Below are positions 1,362-8,459 of a stretch of DNA of 35,284 bases, in pieces (the first letter of the stretch is position 1; each line of letters begins with the position of its first letter). The DNA lies in assembly GCA_937868485.1 (NCBI GenBank), contig CALMML010000057.1:1-35284 (forward strand), written 5' to 3'. The DNA is from an uncultured Myxococcales bacterium. Its GTDB lineage: Bacteria; Myxococcota_A; Polyangia; Palsa-1104; JAEUJZ01. The notes beneath the pieces were generated by a model, which did no database searches, was not told the DNA's origin, and was given only the letters and a program-made list of their open reading frames with translations. A program made the position numbers and the translations under genes.

Positions 1362-1464
1362 GCGCCCAGATGGTAGATGCGCACCGATCGGCGCGCTGGG
1401 ACGGATGGTCAGGAATCGGAAGGAAGCCGCAGGCGCTGCGGCGGAAGGAAAAGCGACGAGCCGA

Positions 1465-3498
1465 CTAGCCGACGGGCTGCTGGCAGACGTTGGCGCTGCA
1501 GGTCAGACCGGCGCAGCAGCCACCACCACCGCAGGTCTGTCCCGCACCGATGCAGGTGGACGGACTGACGCACACGCCGTTTACCGCGACGCCCGAGCAG
1601 CACTGGGTGCTGACATCGGCAGCGGCTCCGTCTTGACGGCACGCGACGGGGGCCCAGTACGCGGAGATGTTCTTCGCAGCGACATCCTGACCGGGCAGCC
1701 AGTACGGAACGAAGCTCGGATCTTCCCCGGCGTTGGGCGAGTTCTTGATCGCGGCAACCCACAGCTGCTGACGGCTGGTGCCAGCGGTGCCGACCTTGTT
1801 ATTGCCGTAGTCACGCTCGCTGATGAAGCTGAGCCAGAAGTAACCACCGACGTTGAACGGAGAGAAGTTCGGGAAGAACACCTTCGCCGTCGTGGTGCTG
1901 CCCATCGCGTTGGCCAGCTTGATAAGGCCCGTGCCGTCCGGCTTGATCATAAACAGCGAGCCAGGCTTCTGGTTGTCGCTGCGCGGGCTTGTGCCGTTCT
2001 GGAACGAAATCCACTTCGAGTCGGGCGACCAGGTCGGATAGCTGTTCTGCGTCGCGCCCGCAACGGTCGCCGCCTTGTGAATCTGCACCACCGGACCGAC
2101 GGTGTCTTGTCCAGTGACAGGCAGGATCGACAGGTTGGCGACGCTCAGGTCGGTGCCGTCCCCGTTGGCTTCGCTGGCGTAGGCAATCATCTTGCCGTCC
2201 GGCGACCAGTTCGGATAGGTGCCTCCCGTCGGAAGTGCGCTGCTGCCCGCGCCGAGCGTAACCGGCTTTCCGTTGGCGGTATCAATGAAGTACATGATGT
2301 TGCCGCCGCTCGGGTTGACGACGACCATCCGCTTCGCATCGGGATTGAACGACGAAAAGTAGAACGGCTGGGTCGCGGTCGTGACCGGATAGGTCGTCGG
2401 AGCCGGGTTGCCGCTCAGGTTGGCGGTCAGGTCGAAGATGCCGCCGTAGTTGATGCCACCACCGAGCCGACCGACCATGTAGCGGCCATCGCGCGAGACG
2501 GTGTGGCAACCGACGCAGACCTCGCCGCTCGACGGAGACTTCGGCGGGTTTGGCAACAGGTCCGATGCCGTCGCGGTGCCGTCCTGAATCTTGCGGATCT
2601 TGCCGACGTTGATGTCCCAGTAATAGATGGTGCCAAGCAGCGAGCCCTTGGCAAAGTGCATCTTGACTGCGTTTCCGCTCCACACCTTGCCGGTCGCTTT
2701 TTCGTAGCGGTCCACCGTCAGGACTGCATCGGCGTCGAGGTTGCTCTGCGCGATGCCGGCCCAGCCCTTGGCATCGACCAGATAGTTCGACGTAAACGCG
2801 GTGCTGTTGTGACCGACGTACGCCGTAAACTTCATGTTCGGCTTGACGATGCTGACGCGGAAGATGTCGCCGACTGCGCCCATCGTCCACTGGATGTTGG
2901 CCGGATAGACGTTCTGCGGCATCAGCACGTTGTCGAGCGGATACACAATGCCCGCAGCCTTGGTCAGATCCTGCGTCGGCGTCGCGGCTGCAAACAGGGC
3001 CGCCGCATTGGCGTCCGTGTTGGGAGTCGACAGCACCGACTCCACAGTCACGGTGATCTTGACGGTGGTCGTCACCGGCGTGCCATTGTCGATGTAGGTC
3101 GCAGTCACCTCGACCTCACCACCGATGGTTCCGTTGGCGGTAAAGACACCGGCAGAGTCCACCGTTCCAATCGCGTTGTAGGGAACGCTCCAGCTCACAC
3201 CGACAAGCTGATTGCTGGTCGATCCATCGGCGCGAGTACCAGTGACAGCCAGCGCTTGGGAAACGGGCGTTCCGCTCGCTTTGAGCATCACCGGACTCGG
3301 CGTGATGCTGATCGAAACGTACTCCGGTGCGGTCTGATTGCCACAGCCGTTCGGGTCCGTGCAGTTTGCGTTGCAAGTCGCCGGATCTGCATTCGGATCC
3401 GCACAGACATCACCACCGCCCAGGCTGCTGTTGTTGCAGCCCACCACAACCGCGGTGGTCAGGACGGAAAGAATGCCAAGAAGCTTCCAAGTTTTCAT
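1465..3498 (-). CDS. Lipoprotein with Ig-like region, CXXCH site, TolB-like propeller and knottin-like C-terminus
   Basis: 677 residues. A lipoprotein signal ends in VVGC (Cys21). A short Cys-rich stretch (about 32-52, DPNADPATCNANCTDPNGC) is followed by a bacterial Ig-like (BIG_2 type) region at about 60-155. The central part has a single CVGCH sequence (Cys328, Cys331, His332), the covalent heme c attachment pattern. Repeated PNWSPDGK, PTWSPDSK and FNPDAKR motifs then mark TolB/WD40-like propeller blades. The last 60 residues are Cys-rich. Residues 649-672 have spacing C-x6-C-x4-CC-x4-C-x4-C, the inhibitor cystine knot pattern. A GGAG lies 9-10 bases before the ATG at 3498. The CXXCH fits the cytochrome c maturation genes further along the window, but heme attachment is inferred. 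The likely location is the outer membrane or cell surface; substrate or partner unknown. Confidence 0.85.
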   Translation of the reverse strand: MKTWKLLGILSVLTTAVVVGCNNSSLGGGDVCADPNADPATCNANCTDPNGCGNQTAPEYVSISITPSPVMLKASGTPVSQALAVTGTRADGSTSNQLVGVSWSVPYNAIGTVDSAGVFTANGTIGGEVEVTATYIDNGTPVTTTVKITVTVESVLSTPNTDANAAALFAAATPTQDLTKAAGIVYPLDNVLMPQNVYPANIQWTMGAVGDIFRVSIVKPNMKFTAYVGHNSTAFTSNYLVDAKGWAGIAQSNLDADAVLTVDRYEKATGKVWSGNAVKMHFAKGSLLGTIYYWDINVGKIRKIQDGTATASDLLPNPPKSPSSGEVCVGCHTVSRDGRYMVGRLGGGINYGGIFDLTANLSGNPAPTTYPVTTATQPFYFSSFNPDAKRMVVVNPSGGNIMYFIDTANGKPVTLGAGSSALPTGGTYPNWSPDGKMIAYASEANGDGTDLSVANLSILPVTGQDTVGPVVQIHKAATVAGATQNSYPTWSPDSKWISFQNGTSPRSDNQKPGSLFMIKPDGTGLIKLANAMGSTTTAKVFFPNFSPFNVGGYFWLSFISERDYGNNKVGTAGTSRQQLWVAAIKNSPNAGEDPSFVPYWLPGQDVAAKNISAYWAPVACRQDGAAADVSTQCCSGVAVNGVCVSPSTCIGAGQTCGGGGCCAGLTCSANVCQQPVG

Positions 3499-3869
3499 CG
3501 TGAATACTCCACCCTAGCCAAGATTCGTAGGCACAGCGCAGACAATGACAGCAGCATTTTACCGTCGGAAAGTGCGATTCATCAAGCGCGATACGGTCTG
3601 CGCATTCCTAAGTTGCGGAATCGTAACAACTGTTCGAGCCACGAACGCTCAAGTGACACAGACAGCGCCATCGAAACGGACGCTGTAGCAACTGATGCAA
3701 ATGACTCAGGGATTCACCTGAGACGACATCTGCAACACGCCGTACTGCGGAGACATTGCGGAAGGAATCCGATGGATTCGAGGTGTTCTGTGTGGTGAAA
3801 AGGAGTCCGGTCAGGAGTCCCATTCATCGCGGTTGACCGGGATGTGTGTCCGGGTAAAGCTATGCAACC
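3499..3869. other. Non-coding divergent control region between lipoprotein and P450 genes
   Basis: No credible gene is seen in these 371 bases; open frames crossing it are extensions of antisense frames. It is less GC-rich than its flanks. It holds several short inverted repeats: ACAGCG/CGCTGT (3662-3686), CTCAGG-6-CCTGAG (3705-3722) and GAATCC-GAT-GGATTC (3765-3779). A tandem direct repeat AGGAGTCC follows (about 3801-3819). These could be operators for the P450 gene or promoters for both divergent genes. Function is inferred only from position and symmetry. Confidence 0.5.
3833..3860 (+). promoter_or_regulatory. Weak candidate promoter for the P450-reductase gene
   Basis: TTGACC (3833-3838), a good -35 match, is followed after 16 bases by TAAAGC (3855-3860), a poor -10 match, ending 9 bases before the ATG at 3870. 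The gene has no clear Shine-Dalgarno sequence, so a very short leader is plausible. Confidence 0.25.
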
Positions 3870-6800
3870 ATGACCGCCAGCAAACGCTCTGTCTTTGTCA
3901 CGTTCCAAGGCCAACGACAAAAGATCAGCTTCTATGAAGGAACCAGCGAGCTTGCCATCGATCGCGCCGTCCGTGCGGCATTCGGAATCGCGGAATCGGT
4001 GACGCTTCGCTTTCGGGATACAGAGGGAGACGCGCTGGCGCTCTGTGACAAGCTCCCACATGAGCTGGAGCTGACAGCGGAAGCGACGGAACTTGTCACA
4101 GCCCAGAAGATGCAGACACGCGATGCGGACACGGAACGGAGTCCGGCTCGATCGGAACAGAGTCCGATTCCCGCGAAGTCTGCGACGCTGCTAGAAGTTC
4201 CCGGACCGAGTCCGTGGCCCATCATCGGCAACATCGACCGGCTTCGCGCGGGGGAAAACCTACAAGAAGCCCTGGCCAAAGTTGCGTCGGAATACGGTCG
4301 GTTTGCGCGGCTGAAGCTTCCGAATCGCGCGACGTTTTACATCAACACCGATGCCGATGTGGTGGAAGAGCTAGACCGTCGTCCTGATGACTTCCGCAAG
4401 ACCACTCCACCGCCGGCAACACCGCTTGGTCGACTGCGCGCCGGAGCCGCAGGAAAAGGTCTGTTTACGTCCGGTGATGAAGAAGAGATCTGGCAGATCG
4501 CGCATCGGATTCTGCTTCCCGCGTTCGGACTGGGAGCCATCAAGCAGTACTTCGGTCGCATCGTGGAAGTGTCCGATGACTTGATCGAAAACCTCCGCAG
4601 TCGCAAGCCAAACGAGTCGTTCTTGGTGACAGAGCTGATGACCAAGATGACGTTTGAAGCGATTGGCTATGCAGGCTTTCACTCGCGCTTTCACTGCGTG
4701 AACGCCAAAGAAACGCCGCCGTTTGTGCAAGCGATGGTGGACGTACTGGAAGTCGCGATGGAGCAGACGCGCAACCTGCTTCCCGATCGATTCCATGTGC
4801 TTCAGCGTCACAAAAAAGACGCAGCATCAAAGGTCTTGTCGGACACGGTGGATCAGATCATTTCCGAGCGCAAAGGGATGATGCAGCGCAATGAAGCGGT
4901 CCCAAACGACATGCTTCAGATCATGCTGACGGCGCGCGATCGACAGACCGGACAGCGACTGCCAGATGACAACATTCGCGAGCAGCTCATCACGTTCCTC
5001 ATCGCAGGTCACGAGACCACAAGTGGCATGCTGTCCTACGCGCTATATTACATCTCGAAAAATCCTCTTATTGAACAGAAGCTCATCGAAGAGGTCGATC
5101 GCGTTCTCGGACGAGACTACAGTCGCAAGCCAAGCTTCGCGGATCTGGATGAGCTGGACTACACCGGACGGATCTTGAAAGAAGCGCTGCGGCTCAATCC
5201 AACGGCGCCCGGCTTTGGCAAAGTGGTGCAGCGCGACACCGTCATCGCAGGCAAGTATTCGGTCAAAAAAGACAGCATCATCCTGACGCTGCTCGGTAGC
5301 TTGCATCGCGATCCTCGGCACTTTGGGAAAGACCCCGAAGCGTTCAATCCCGATCACTTCCTTCCCGATGCGGTCGCGCGTCGTCATCCGCATGCCTACC
5401 ATCCGTTCGGAATGGGAATCCGTAGCTGCATCGGATCTCAGTTTGCGCTGGTGGAAGCCAAGCTGGTGCTCGCACGGATGTATCAGCAGTTCCGGCTGCG
5501 GCTGAGCGATCCGAGCTATCAGCTCAAGCACATTCAGACGCTGACGATCAAGCCACGCGATCTGCTGATGTGCGTGACACCGCGTCAGGAGGAGAAAGGA
5601 AAGCAGCCCACCTCACGCGCGGTATCAAACGATCCGGTGCGCATGCAGCGCGAGCCCGCAAGCGCAGAAGGATCGCTGCTGATTCTGTACGGATCGAACA
5701 TGGGAACCGCGCAGGAGCTGGCGCAGAAGCTTCTCCAGCAAGCTTCCGCGCGGAAGATTTCAGCGACGGTGGCAGAGCTGGATTCCTTTGTGGACAGGCT
5801 GCCCAAACAGACTCCGGTGGTGCTGATCTGTTCGACCTACAACGGACTGCCGCCAGACAACGCGGTGAAGTTTCATGCGTGGCTCAAGCAGCTAGCAGGC
5901 AGCGACGCGCTACAGGGTGTGGACTTTGCAGTCCTTGGCTGCGGCAACAAGCAGTGGCAAGCCACCTTCCAGCAGGTTCCTCGCTTTCTGTTTGATCGAT
6001 TGAGTGCGCTGGGCGCCAAGCCGCTGACTCCGTTTGTGGGCTGTGATGCCGACGGAGACTTCGATGCATCGGCAGAGTCTTTCTGCCAAGCGCTGTGGTC
6101 TGTGATGGGCTCGCGATCTCCCGCCATATCGGAAGGAATCAGCGCAGCAAGCGACAGCGAACACGCGCTCTCTTACGCAGTGGACGTCGTCCATTCCGCT
6201 GGATCGGATGCATCGCCGCTGGAATCAAGTCGCGTGCCCCTGCAAGCGGAAGCCAGACTGTGTACGATCCTCGAACATCGCGAGCTACAGTCCGCGCAGG
6301 CAGAGCGCTCCACTCGTCACCTAGAAATCCAGATCCCCGACGGTGTTTCCTATTCCGCAGGCGATCACGTAGGAGTCCTTCCCGACAATCCCATCGCGCT
6401 GTGTCAGTCCTATGCACAGCGCTGCGGAGTCCAGCTGTCTGACGCCGTGGTGATTCGTAAAATCGGCGCGATCAGCGGTCCGTTTCCGTGCGGAATTCCT
6501 CTCTCTGTCCGCGAGCTTCTGGGACAGCATGTGGATCTAAGCGGACCCCTTACCCGTCGAGAGCTGCGCGTTCTGGCTGCGCGCTGCCAGTGTCCGCCCG
6601 AACGAAGCGAGCTGCTGCGACTGGCATCCGCAGAGTCCTTCCCTACCGAGGTACTTTCGCAGCGCCTGACCTTGCTGGATGTCCTGCTTCGCTTTGCGTC
6701 GATTCCTTGTGATCTGGCCACGGTGCTGTCGCTGCGTCCGATGCTGCGTCCGCGCTATTACTCGATCTCGTCATCGCCCCGAAAGCTACCGAATCGCTGC

Positions 6801-7424
6801 ACCATCACCGTCGGTGTTCATGACTACCAAGGACCCGCAGGACAGCTCCGCGCGGGACTGTGCAGTCACTATCTGGCAGAGCGCACAGAAGGACAGACGC
6901 TGCGGGTGATCATCAAAGACACCGGAAGCAGCTTCCGCTTGCCGCCCGATCCCAAGATTCCGGTGATCTTGATTGGACCAGGAACGGGACTTGCGCCCCT
7001 GCGAGGCTTTGTACAAGAGCGCGCCGCGCTACGGAGCGAAGGAACGGAGGTCGGCCAGACGCTGCTGTTCTTCGGCTGCCGTCGTCCTGATCACGACTAC
7101 CTGTATCGCGAAGAGCTGGAAGCGTACGCGCAAGATGGAACGCTCGCCGGTCTGTATGTTGCGTTTTCCCGTCAGCCCGAAACGCCGAAGACCTACGTGC
7201 AGGATCTGATTCGGCAGCATGCGCAGAAACTGTGGTCCCTGCTGCAAGAGGGTGCGTATGTCTTTGTCTGTGGCGACGCAAAGAGCATGGCCCCCGCTGT
7301 CCAGCAGACCTTTGCAGAGATCCTGACCGCACACGGTGGACAGTCGGCAGAGCAGGCCCAAGAGACGATCCGTAGCTGGCGCAGTCAAGGTCGCTACTGC
7401 GAAGATGTCTGGGCTTCGACCTAA
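3870..7424 (+). CDS. Self-sufficient cytochrome P450 / NADPH-P450 reductase (CYP102-type) with N-terminal ubiquitin-like domain
   Basis: 1184 residues; the best-known relative, P450 BM3 (CYP102A1), has about 1050. Residues 1-75 form an extra domain with ubiquitin/PB1-like layout (VFVTFQGQ, RQKISFYEG, a helix, then RFRDTEGDALAL with D50-T-E-G-D54). A polar linker runs to about 108. The P450 domain (about 110-575) has the I-helix AGHETT (379-384), ExxR (E438-R441) and heme ligand Cys520 in FGMGIRSCIG. The flavodoxin domain starts at YGSNMGTA (607 onward). FAD binding is marked by RPRYYSIS (960-967), NADPH binding by GPGTGLAP (1036 onward), and the C-terminus is DVWAST. BM3 Arg47, Tyr51 and Phe87 align with Arg153, Tyr157 and Phe199, so fatty-acid hydroxylation with NADPH and O2 is the likely reaction. 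It is cytosolic and has no membrane anchor. The ATG at 3870 is needed to include the N-terminal domain. An out-of-frame ATG lies at 3862. Confidence 0.95.
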   Translation: MTASKRSVFVTFQGQRQKISFYEGTSELAIDRAVRAAFGIAESVTLRFRDTEGDALALCDKLPHELELTAEATELVTAQKMQTRDADTERSPARSEQSPIPAKSATLLEVPGPSPWPIIGNIDRLRAGENLQEALAKVASEYGRFARLKLPNRATFYINTDADVVEELDRRPDDFRKTTPPPATPLGRLRAGAAGKGLFTSGDEEEIWQIAHRILLPAFGLGAIKQYFGRIVEVSDDLIENLRSRKPNESFLVTELMTKMTFEAIGYAGFHSRFHCVNAKETPPFVQAMVDVLEVAMEQTRNLLPDRFHVLQRHKKDAASKVLSDTVDQIISERKGMMQRNEAVPNDMLQIMLTARDRQTGQRLPDDNIREQLITFLIAGHETTSGMLSYALYYISKNPLIEQKLIEEVDRVLGRDYSRKPSFADLDELDYTGRILKEALRLNPTAPGFGKVVQRDTVIAGKYSVKKDSIILTLLGSLHRDPRHFGKDPEAFNPDHFLPDAVARRHPHAYHPFGMGIRSCIGSQFALVEAKLVLARMYQQFRLRLSDPSYQLKHIQTLTIKPRDLLMCVTPRQEEKGKQPTSRAVSNDPVRMQREPASAEGSLLILYGSNMGTAQELAQKLLQQASARKISATVAELDSFVDRLPKQTPVVLICSTYNGLPPDNAVKFHAWLKQLAGSDALQGVDFAVLGCGNKQWQATFQQVPRFLFDRLSALGAKPLTPFVGCDADGDFDASAESFCQALWSVMGSRSPAISEGISAASDSEHALSYAVDVVHSAGSDASPLESSRVPLQAEARLCTILEHRELQSAQAERSTRHLEIQIPDGVSYSAGDHVGVLPDNPIALCQSYAQRCGVQLSDAVVIRKIGAISGPFPCGIPLSVRELLGQHVDLSGPLTRRELRVLAARCQCPPERSELLRLASAESFPTEVLSQRLTLLDVLLRFASIPCDLATVLSLRPMLRPRYYSISSSPRKLPNRCTITVGVHDYQGPAGQLRAGLCSHYLAERTEGQTLRVIIKDTGSSFRLPPDPKIPVILIGPGTGLAPLRGFVQERAALRSEGTEVGQTLLFFGCRRPDHDYLYREELEAYAQDGTLAGLYVAFSRQPETPKTYVQDLIRQHAQKLWSLLQEGAYVFVCGDAKSMAPAVQQTFAEILTAHGGQSAEQAQETIRSWRSQGRYCEDVWAST

Positions 7425-7562: not shown

Positions 7563-8459
7563 TTATTCTTCGTCAGATGACTCTTCGTAGTAGCGCACAA
7601 ACAGGTTCAGATCACTGCCGCCCAGTCGCAGCTCATTGATCGGACACGGAGAGCTGACTTGGCAGCGATCGAACAGCGTACGCAGTCGCTTGCGGTCGTG
7701 CGCATAGATGCAAAAGTCCCCGCGCTTGGGATCGACGATGTCGAGCAGCCAGTCGGTGCGCGGCCCCGGTTCGTTGAGCACGCTGCCCTGCCCCTCCAGC
7801 TCGACCCGACCGCTGACCATGTACGTCAGATCCGTTTCCGACAGCACGCCTTGGTGTAGCTCGTCGCCGGGATGGGTGTGATAGGTGCCAATCAGCTGCT
7901 CGCCCGGCTGAAGCGGACCCAGATCCGCCGCCAGAAAGTCCAGCGAGTCCCCCGCAAAGCGAAACGGAGGAACCAGCACGCGCGTCACATCCACGTCGCT
8001 GCCCAGCCGCTTGCCGAGCAGAAACGCCGCAACTTCAGCCACATCATCGCGGCCCAGACCTTCCTGTCGCGTCGAGACGTCCTTGAGCCGCTTGAGCTGA
8101 CAGACCTGCCGTCCCGAAAAGCGCACGCGCGACAGCTTCCCGTCGAGCTGCACCGCCACAATCCGCGCCCGCGCCTGACACGGAGCATCCGGCGACAGGC
8201 TGGGGTGCGGCACCTCGTCGAGGATCGCGTTCAAGATCGCCGCGTTGGCAAACGCATCCTGCGGGTCCAGTCGCGGCACCGTATCGCCTATCAGCCCTCG
8301 CTCACGCGCACGTTCCAGCGCATGCACCGACGGAATCGGCGGCCTTCGCTTGTGCGACAGCGCCAGGATCGCCGAGCCCACACCAATGGCGTACAGCGCA
8401 CAGACCAGCAGCGCGCGTCCCCACTGCGAAGCTCGTCCCCCGAATCGAACCCGTCTCAT
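7563..8459 (-). CDS. Membrane-anchored JAMM/MPN-like (putative metallopeptidase) protein
   Basis: 298 residues. A single hydrophobic segment (about 16-35, ALLVCALYAIGVGSAILALS) after a basic N-terminus suggests a signal anchor with the rest outside the cytoplasm. Residues 191-210 read IGTYHTHPGD followed by ELHQGVLSETD. His194-x-His196-Pro with Ser207-x-x-Asp210 is the zinc-binding signature of JAMM/MPN proteases, but the gap between His and Ser is three residues longer than usual. The upstream catalytic Glu could not be assigned with confidence. Four Cys residues (about 93, 119, 253 and 268) might form disulfides if exported. The ATG at 8459 is preceded by GGTGG. The AT-rich stretch at 8520-8560 may hold its promoter. 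It stands alone, convergent with the P450 gene. Activity is inferred; it could be a non-catalytic member. Confidence 0.6.
   Translation of the reverse strand: MRRVRFGGRASQWGRALLVCALYAIGVGSAILALSHKRRPPIPSVHALERARERGLIGDTVPRLDPQDAFANAAILNAILDEVPHPSLSPDAPCQARARIVAVQLDGKLSRVRFSGRQVCQLKRLKDVSTRQEGLGRDDVAEVAAFLLGKRLGSDVDVTRVLVPPFRFAGDSLDFLAADLGPLQPGEQLIGTYHTHPGDELHQGVLSETDLTYMVSGRVELEGQGSVLNEPGPRTDWLLDIVDPKRGDFCIYAHDRKRLRTLFDRCQVSSPCPINELRLGGSDLNLFVRYYEESSDEE

Follow-up and report, generated by a model that had tools for sequence, protein, structure and literature searches.

What is the extra stretch of about 108 residues that the original prediction placed ahead of the P450 domain of a myxobacterial fusion protein resembling P450 BM3, and what could such a stretch do for an enzyme of this kind? 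The gene lies on a contig from an uncultured Myxococcales bacterium, of which we analysed positions 1 to 35,284 (the window). The features that matter here are as follows.

1465-3498, minus strand: PD40 beta-propeller gene with a lipoprotein-like start, upstream of the P450 gene
3870-7424, plus strand: whole open reading frame of the fusion protein, 1184 aa, ATG at 3870
3870-4091, plus strand: predicted N-terminal ubiquitin-like or PB1-like beta-grasp domain, residues ~1-74 (AlphaFold2 models, VIA-align, conservation in L006 and L005, dN/dS)
4014-4058, plus strand: OPCA-like acidic stretch RDTEGDALALCDKLP, residues 49-63 (conservation among three homologues)
4092-4196, plus strand: variable flexible linker, residues ~75-109 (low identity to the congener, pLDDT 25-44)
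4197-5549, plus strand: CYP102-type P450 heme domain, residues ~110-560, with Cys520 as thiolate ligand (Pfam p450, E 4e-93; BM3 alignment)
5670-7424, plus strand: diflavin reductase with FMN, FAD and NADPH domains, residues ~601-1184 (Pfam Flavodoxin_1, FAD_binding_1, NAD_binding_1)
7563-8459, minus strand: Prok-JAB gene encoding an N-terminal hydrophobic segment, downstream of and convergent with the P450 gene

A CYP102-type enzyme with an N-terminal extension

The Pfam families p450 (residues 111-549), Flavodoxin_1, FAD_binding_1 and NAD_binding_1 follow one another along the frame, and the p450 match, beginning at residue 111, bears out the predicted length of the extension, which comprises ~109 residues made up of the domain (~1-74) and the linker (~75-109). 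The P450 BM3 chain 8dme covers the protein end to end from residue 111 (E 3e-217), and in the phmmer alignment to this chain all five residue matches that had been proposed are correct: Arg47 with Arg153, Tyr51 with Tyr157, Phe87 with Phe199, Thr268 with Thr383 and Cys400 with Cys520, the first of each pair in BM3 numbering. Equivalents of BM3 Trp96 and Phe393 are also present, so that the heme-thiolate Cys, the I-helix AGHETT and the counterparts of Arg47, Tyr51 and Phe87 are all found in the one protein. Because of the end-to-end alignment and the five correct equivalences, the product is, as judged by its sequence, a CYP102-type self-sufficient P450-reductase fusion. Membership of the CYP102 family is by convention set at an identity of at least ~40% to a known CYP102 P450, and the identity to BM3, 39.5% over 468 aligned positions that lie nearly all in the heme domain, stands at the edge of that convention. 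Like CYP102A1 (P450 BM3), the myxobacterial protein joins a P450 heme domain and a diflavin reductase in a single chain with the P450 N-terminal; it differs in its ~109 additional N-terminal residues, which include a predicted folded domain, in a Ser in place of Gln403, in short insertions between the Arg/Tyr motif and Phe87, and in its position in a separate deep clade of the tree.

Translation and conservation of the extension

The same extension occurs at the same place in a congener (G002, with an open frame of 1194 codons; Myxococcales MAG record JAEUKB010000063.1, our L006, is identical in sequence there) and in a member of another genus within the same family (G001, L005; 1177 codons). 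Compared with the congener, residues 1-75 are 71% identical (dN 0.18, dS 1.23, dN/dS ~0.15) and the P450 part is 89% identical, whereas linker residues 76-110 are only 23% identical, gapped and saturated at synonymous sites; the identity of the domain to the second-genus homologue is 36%. On these codon comparisons the domain is under purifying selection and the linker is not. The frame has an in-frame stop five codons upstream of the ATG at 3870, and the congener offers no other Met within its first ~250 residues; with the codon-level selection on residues 1-75, this makes a translation start near residue 105 unlikely, and we regard the extension as very likely translated. That it is instead an untranslated or chance in-frame leader to an enzyme beginning near the P450 is scarcely credible: no strong Shine-Dalgarno sequence is visible upstream of codon 1, which would suit that reading, and against it stand the retention of the extension across two genera, its low dN/dS and the lack of an alternative Met in the congener.

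A predicted ubiquitin-like fold

AlphaFold2, working from shallow alignments (1-5 rows), predicts a beta-beta-alpha-beta-(beta)-beta topology with strands at residues 5-12, 15-22, 45-49 and 65/66-71/73 and a helix at 27-38. The beta-beta-helix-beta layout read earlier from the translation is thereby reproduced, and a folded beta-grasp is predicted where a structureless residue 1-75 segment would have spoken against a domain. Mean pLDDT is 76-87 for residues 1-50 from the single sequence; from a shallow alignment pLDDT is 68-89 for residues 1-70 and 75-89 for residues 11-70, falling to 25-44 in the linker. The best Foldseek matches in the PDB are ubiquitin-like folds (the ELMO1 RBD, FERM proteins, the AtNBR1 PB1 domain and a bacterial Ubl), none of them below E 0.001. 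VIA-align of residues 1-76 leaves UFM1, doublecortin, a bacterial Ubl and the PKC-iota PB1 domain tied at Z 8.6-8.8, the last of these (1wmh_A) at Z 8.6 with an rmsd of 1.6 over 66 residues of the predicted model. Doublecortin, UFM1 and bacterial Ubl (Z 8-9 with the predicted model) thus share the fold class of the domain, as do the CAD/CIDE-N, RA and FERM F1 adaptor domains, and on the evidence of the model the structural matches fix the fold class, ubiquitin-like beta-grasp, and not the family. None of these families (doublecortin, CAD/CIDE-N, RA, FERM F1, UFM1, bacterial Ubl) has a Pfam sequence match to the domain at E <= 10, and PDB sequence searches with the domain or with a three-row profile returned chance matches and no ubiquitin-like one. 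An NCBIfam OXA-919 match on the domain (E 0.009) was likewise dismissed as chance. In a longer AlphaFold2 model (residues 1-576) the P450 part is poor, so that the model does not show how the domain packs against it.

Relation to PB1 domains

By sequence profile PB1 (PF00564) is the closest family, and the only ubiquitin-like Pfam family matched, through the domain of the congener alone among the three homologues (E 0.0016); the score of 18.8 bits lies below the gathering threshold of 23.6, and neither the domain of the frame at 3870-7424 nor that of L005 has a Pfam PB1 match. The OPCA core of PB1 domains has been defined as D-x-D/E-x-D/E (PMC7051960), and all three homologues possess it: the acidic D50-T-E-G-D54 pointed out in the original prediction is present in the frame at 3870-7424 and conserved as D-A-D-G-D in both relatives. 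Residues 49-63 around it are identical at 14 of 15 positions between the congener and the other-genus homologue (P 0.0005 against the rest of the domain) and at 9 of 15 across all three, and no other part of the domain is as well conserved in these alignments.

The myxobacterial domain therefore resembles PB1 in its predicted beta-grasp and in its D-x-D/E-x-D/E core, and departs from it in several respects. PB1 domains have 80-100 residues and this one ~70; the second helix that follows beta4 in PB1 is missing, neither AlphaFold2 model having a helix past residue 38 within the domain; the beta3 Tyr is absent (Phe48 in the frame at 3870-7424, Cys in L005); and so, at the aligned place, is the beta1 Lys (Thr11 here, Arg in both relatives). 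Of these two residues only the Tyr counts against PB1 membership as such, since type A PB1 domains do without the Lys. The earlier reading as a PB1 or ubiquitin-like domain accordingly stands for the ubiquitin-like beta-grasp, on prediction and conservation, and falls short for PB1 in the strict sense, where the cut-off, helix 2, Tyr and Lys are all wanting; from sequence and model together we call the domain PB1-like and do not class it as PB1.

Distribution and origin

CYP102-like fusions were searched for in 318 genomes of the class, 379 of the phylum and 200 of the family to which an Altererythrobacter locus belongs; further CYP102-like loci were sought by a pattern scan of one genome per species across 84,980 species. 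The extension is found in 3 of the 24 CYP102 fusions on the tree, all from one myxobacterial family (f1), and in none of those surveyed outside it; one further sequence from this family (G003) does not cover the N-terminus, its contig ending inside the reductase. The three extended proteins form one group (support 99/97), and in 98% of the bootstraps one change is enough to account for the extension. The sister of this group comes from another class of the phylum (G482; L053 / L057), is ~51% identical and is without the domain: its protein starts ~22 residues ahead of the P450, a contig end cuts its gene in the reductase, and the domain was not found in the ~9 kb around the locus. The source genome itself encodes a second CYP102 (contig C24:559-3705, L025), ~40% identical, without the extension and in a different clade. 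The tree is most simply read as one gain, in the common ancestor of family f1, with one loss in the lineage of G482 as a less simple alternative.

The long stop-to-stop leaders of five other CYP102 loci (L022, L037, L047, L048 and L051) show no likeness to the domain by eye and mostly contain no ATG except within their last few residues. Weak matches to the domain in other genomes fall at L013-L016 and L029-L031 (E 0.0007-0.008); those at L013-L016, on inspection, are in unrelated proteins or frames and were discarded as chance. The open-access papers searched contain no CYP102 with such an arrangement, in line with the original prediction, which knew of none, and no paper among them combines a CYP102 with a ubiquitin-like domain; open-access matches for a CYP102 "N-terminal extension" or "additional domain", or for a PB1-P450 fusion, looked off topic by their titles and abstracts, and a recent CYP102 family paper makes no mention of such an N-terminal extension. 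A CYP102 fusion with a ubiquitin-like domain at its front is a genuine variant, apparently one not described before.

Proposed role of the domain

We give a probability of roughly 60% to the reading that the tethered domain mediates interactions by way of its acidic face, the enzyme either associating with itself or docking a partner. A CYP102-type monooxygenase would have gained an N-terminal beta-grasp domain once, in one myxobacterial family, and carried it as a protein-docking module on a flexible tether of ~35 residues. The acidic face (D-x-D/E-G-D) would bind a basic face either of some partner protein or of another copy of the enzyme, where Lys5 and Lys/Arg18, plus Arg11 in two of the three homologues, could provide it; self-binding would build higher oligomers of an already dimeric oxidase. 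In other respects the P450 and reductase would follow the pattern of P450 BM3. The domain with its linker, its conservation and its narrow distribution are observed and its fold class is predicted; docking, its acidic-to-basic mode and the choice between self and partner are what we infer.

PB1 domains pair through an acidic and a basic face (PMC7051960), and PB1 and related beta-grasp domains serve as adaptors and oligomerisers (PMC1949818, PMC7051960). A tethered, folded, ubiquitin-like domain with a conserved acidic loop, in which we saw no active site or catalytic feature and no conjugation tail (C-terminal GG), fits a docking module. Since each of the three homologues keeps Lys5 and Lys/Arg18, and two of them Arg11, self-association is possible, in addition to the dimerisation of BM3-type enzymes (PMC9510131). 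At E <= 0.01 the genome yielded no further copy of the domain in a sequence-level search, a method to which highly divergent copies would be invisible. Neither a paralogous domain nor a protein above the Pfam PB1 cut-off was found in the genomes of the family, nor any protein above that cut-off in 193 genomes of the class; this tips the balance slightly towards self-association or a partner of an unrelated kind. Counting against docking are the lack of any partner protein found, Thr11 in place of the strict PB1 beta1 Lys, a fold drawn from shallow alignments and the unpredicted placing relative to the P450.

The domain might instead regulate or stabilise the enzyme from within: lying against the P450 or reductase of the same dimer, it would influence electron transfer or the access of substrate and need no external partner. 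We consider this unlikely, though it draws on the same failure to find a partner or second copy in the genome, on the restriction of the domain to one CYP102 clade, and on the way BM3 works, as a flexible dimer whose domain contacts are important (PMC9510131). The long, unconserved, low-confidence linker argues rather for a freely tethered module, and the best-conserved patch is the acidic loop, not an extended hydrophobic face.

Gene neighbourhood

Next to the P450 gene, the Prok-JAB protein carries an intact JAMM signature (H-x-H-x10-S-x-x-D), and within the genus the gene order is kept, Prok-JAB adjoining the P450 gene in L006 and L034. Since a Ubl-deubiquitinase complex is the source of the bacterial Ubl among the fold matches, one could picture the domain as a ubiquitin-like tag cut or recognised by this membrane-anchored peptidase, which we hold to be very improbable: the two genes are convergent and not co-transcribed, the domain lacks a C-terminal GG and forms part of a larger protein, the hydrophobic N-terminal segment of the JAB protein suggests an extracytoplasmic domain, and no JAB gene lies near the extended P450 in the second genus (L033). 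The adjacency is nothing special, given that the neighbouring genes are syntenic as a block, and with synteny ending outside the genus we set Prok-JAB aside as a functional partner; it is probably unrelated to the domain. The order is lost in G001, where the extended P450 gene is preceded by one gene of the metallo-beta-lactamase fold and another without assignment. As no neighbour accompanies the extended P450 throughout, the context names no partner.

On the other side of the P450 gene, a 797-codon open frame (1405-3798, plus strand) runs antisense to the PD40 gene; an antisense frame of 626 codons is kept in the congener (L006 2587-4467). It is probably a GC-rich shadow frame.

Implications

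More specifically, and tentatively, the extension may be a self-associating domain, a bacterial one of PB1 type (or CAD/DCX type), that was joined to a self-sufficient P450 for higher-order assembly or for recruitment to a complex. We know of no other CYP102 with a natural protein-docking module, and this one would, if the reading is true, be the first; bacteria would here be using a module familiar chiefly from eukaryotic signalling, and the case bears on the origin or spread of PB1-like domains in bacteria. P450 BM3, one of the P450s most often engineered, owes its activity in part to the geometry of its dimer. From a natural relative with a conserved, tethered docking domain one would learn how this class of enzyme is scaffolded or regulated in evolution, and the domain would offer engineers a ready-made recruitment tag.
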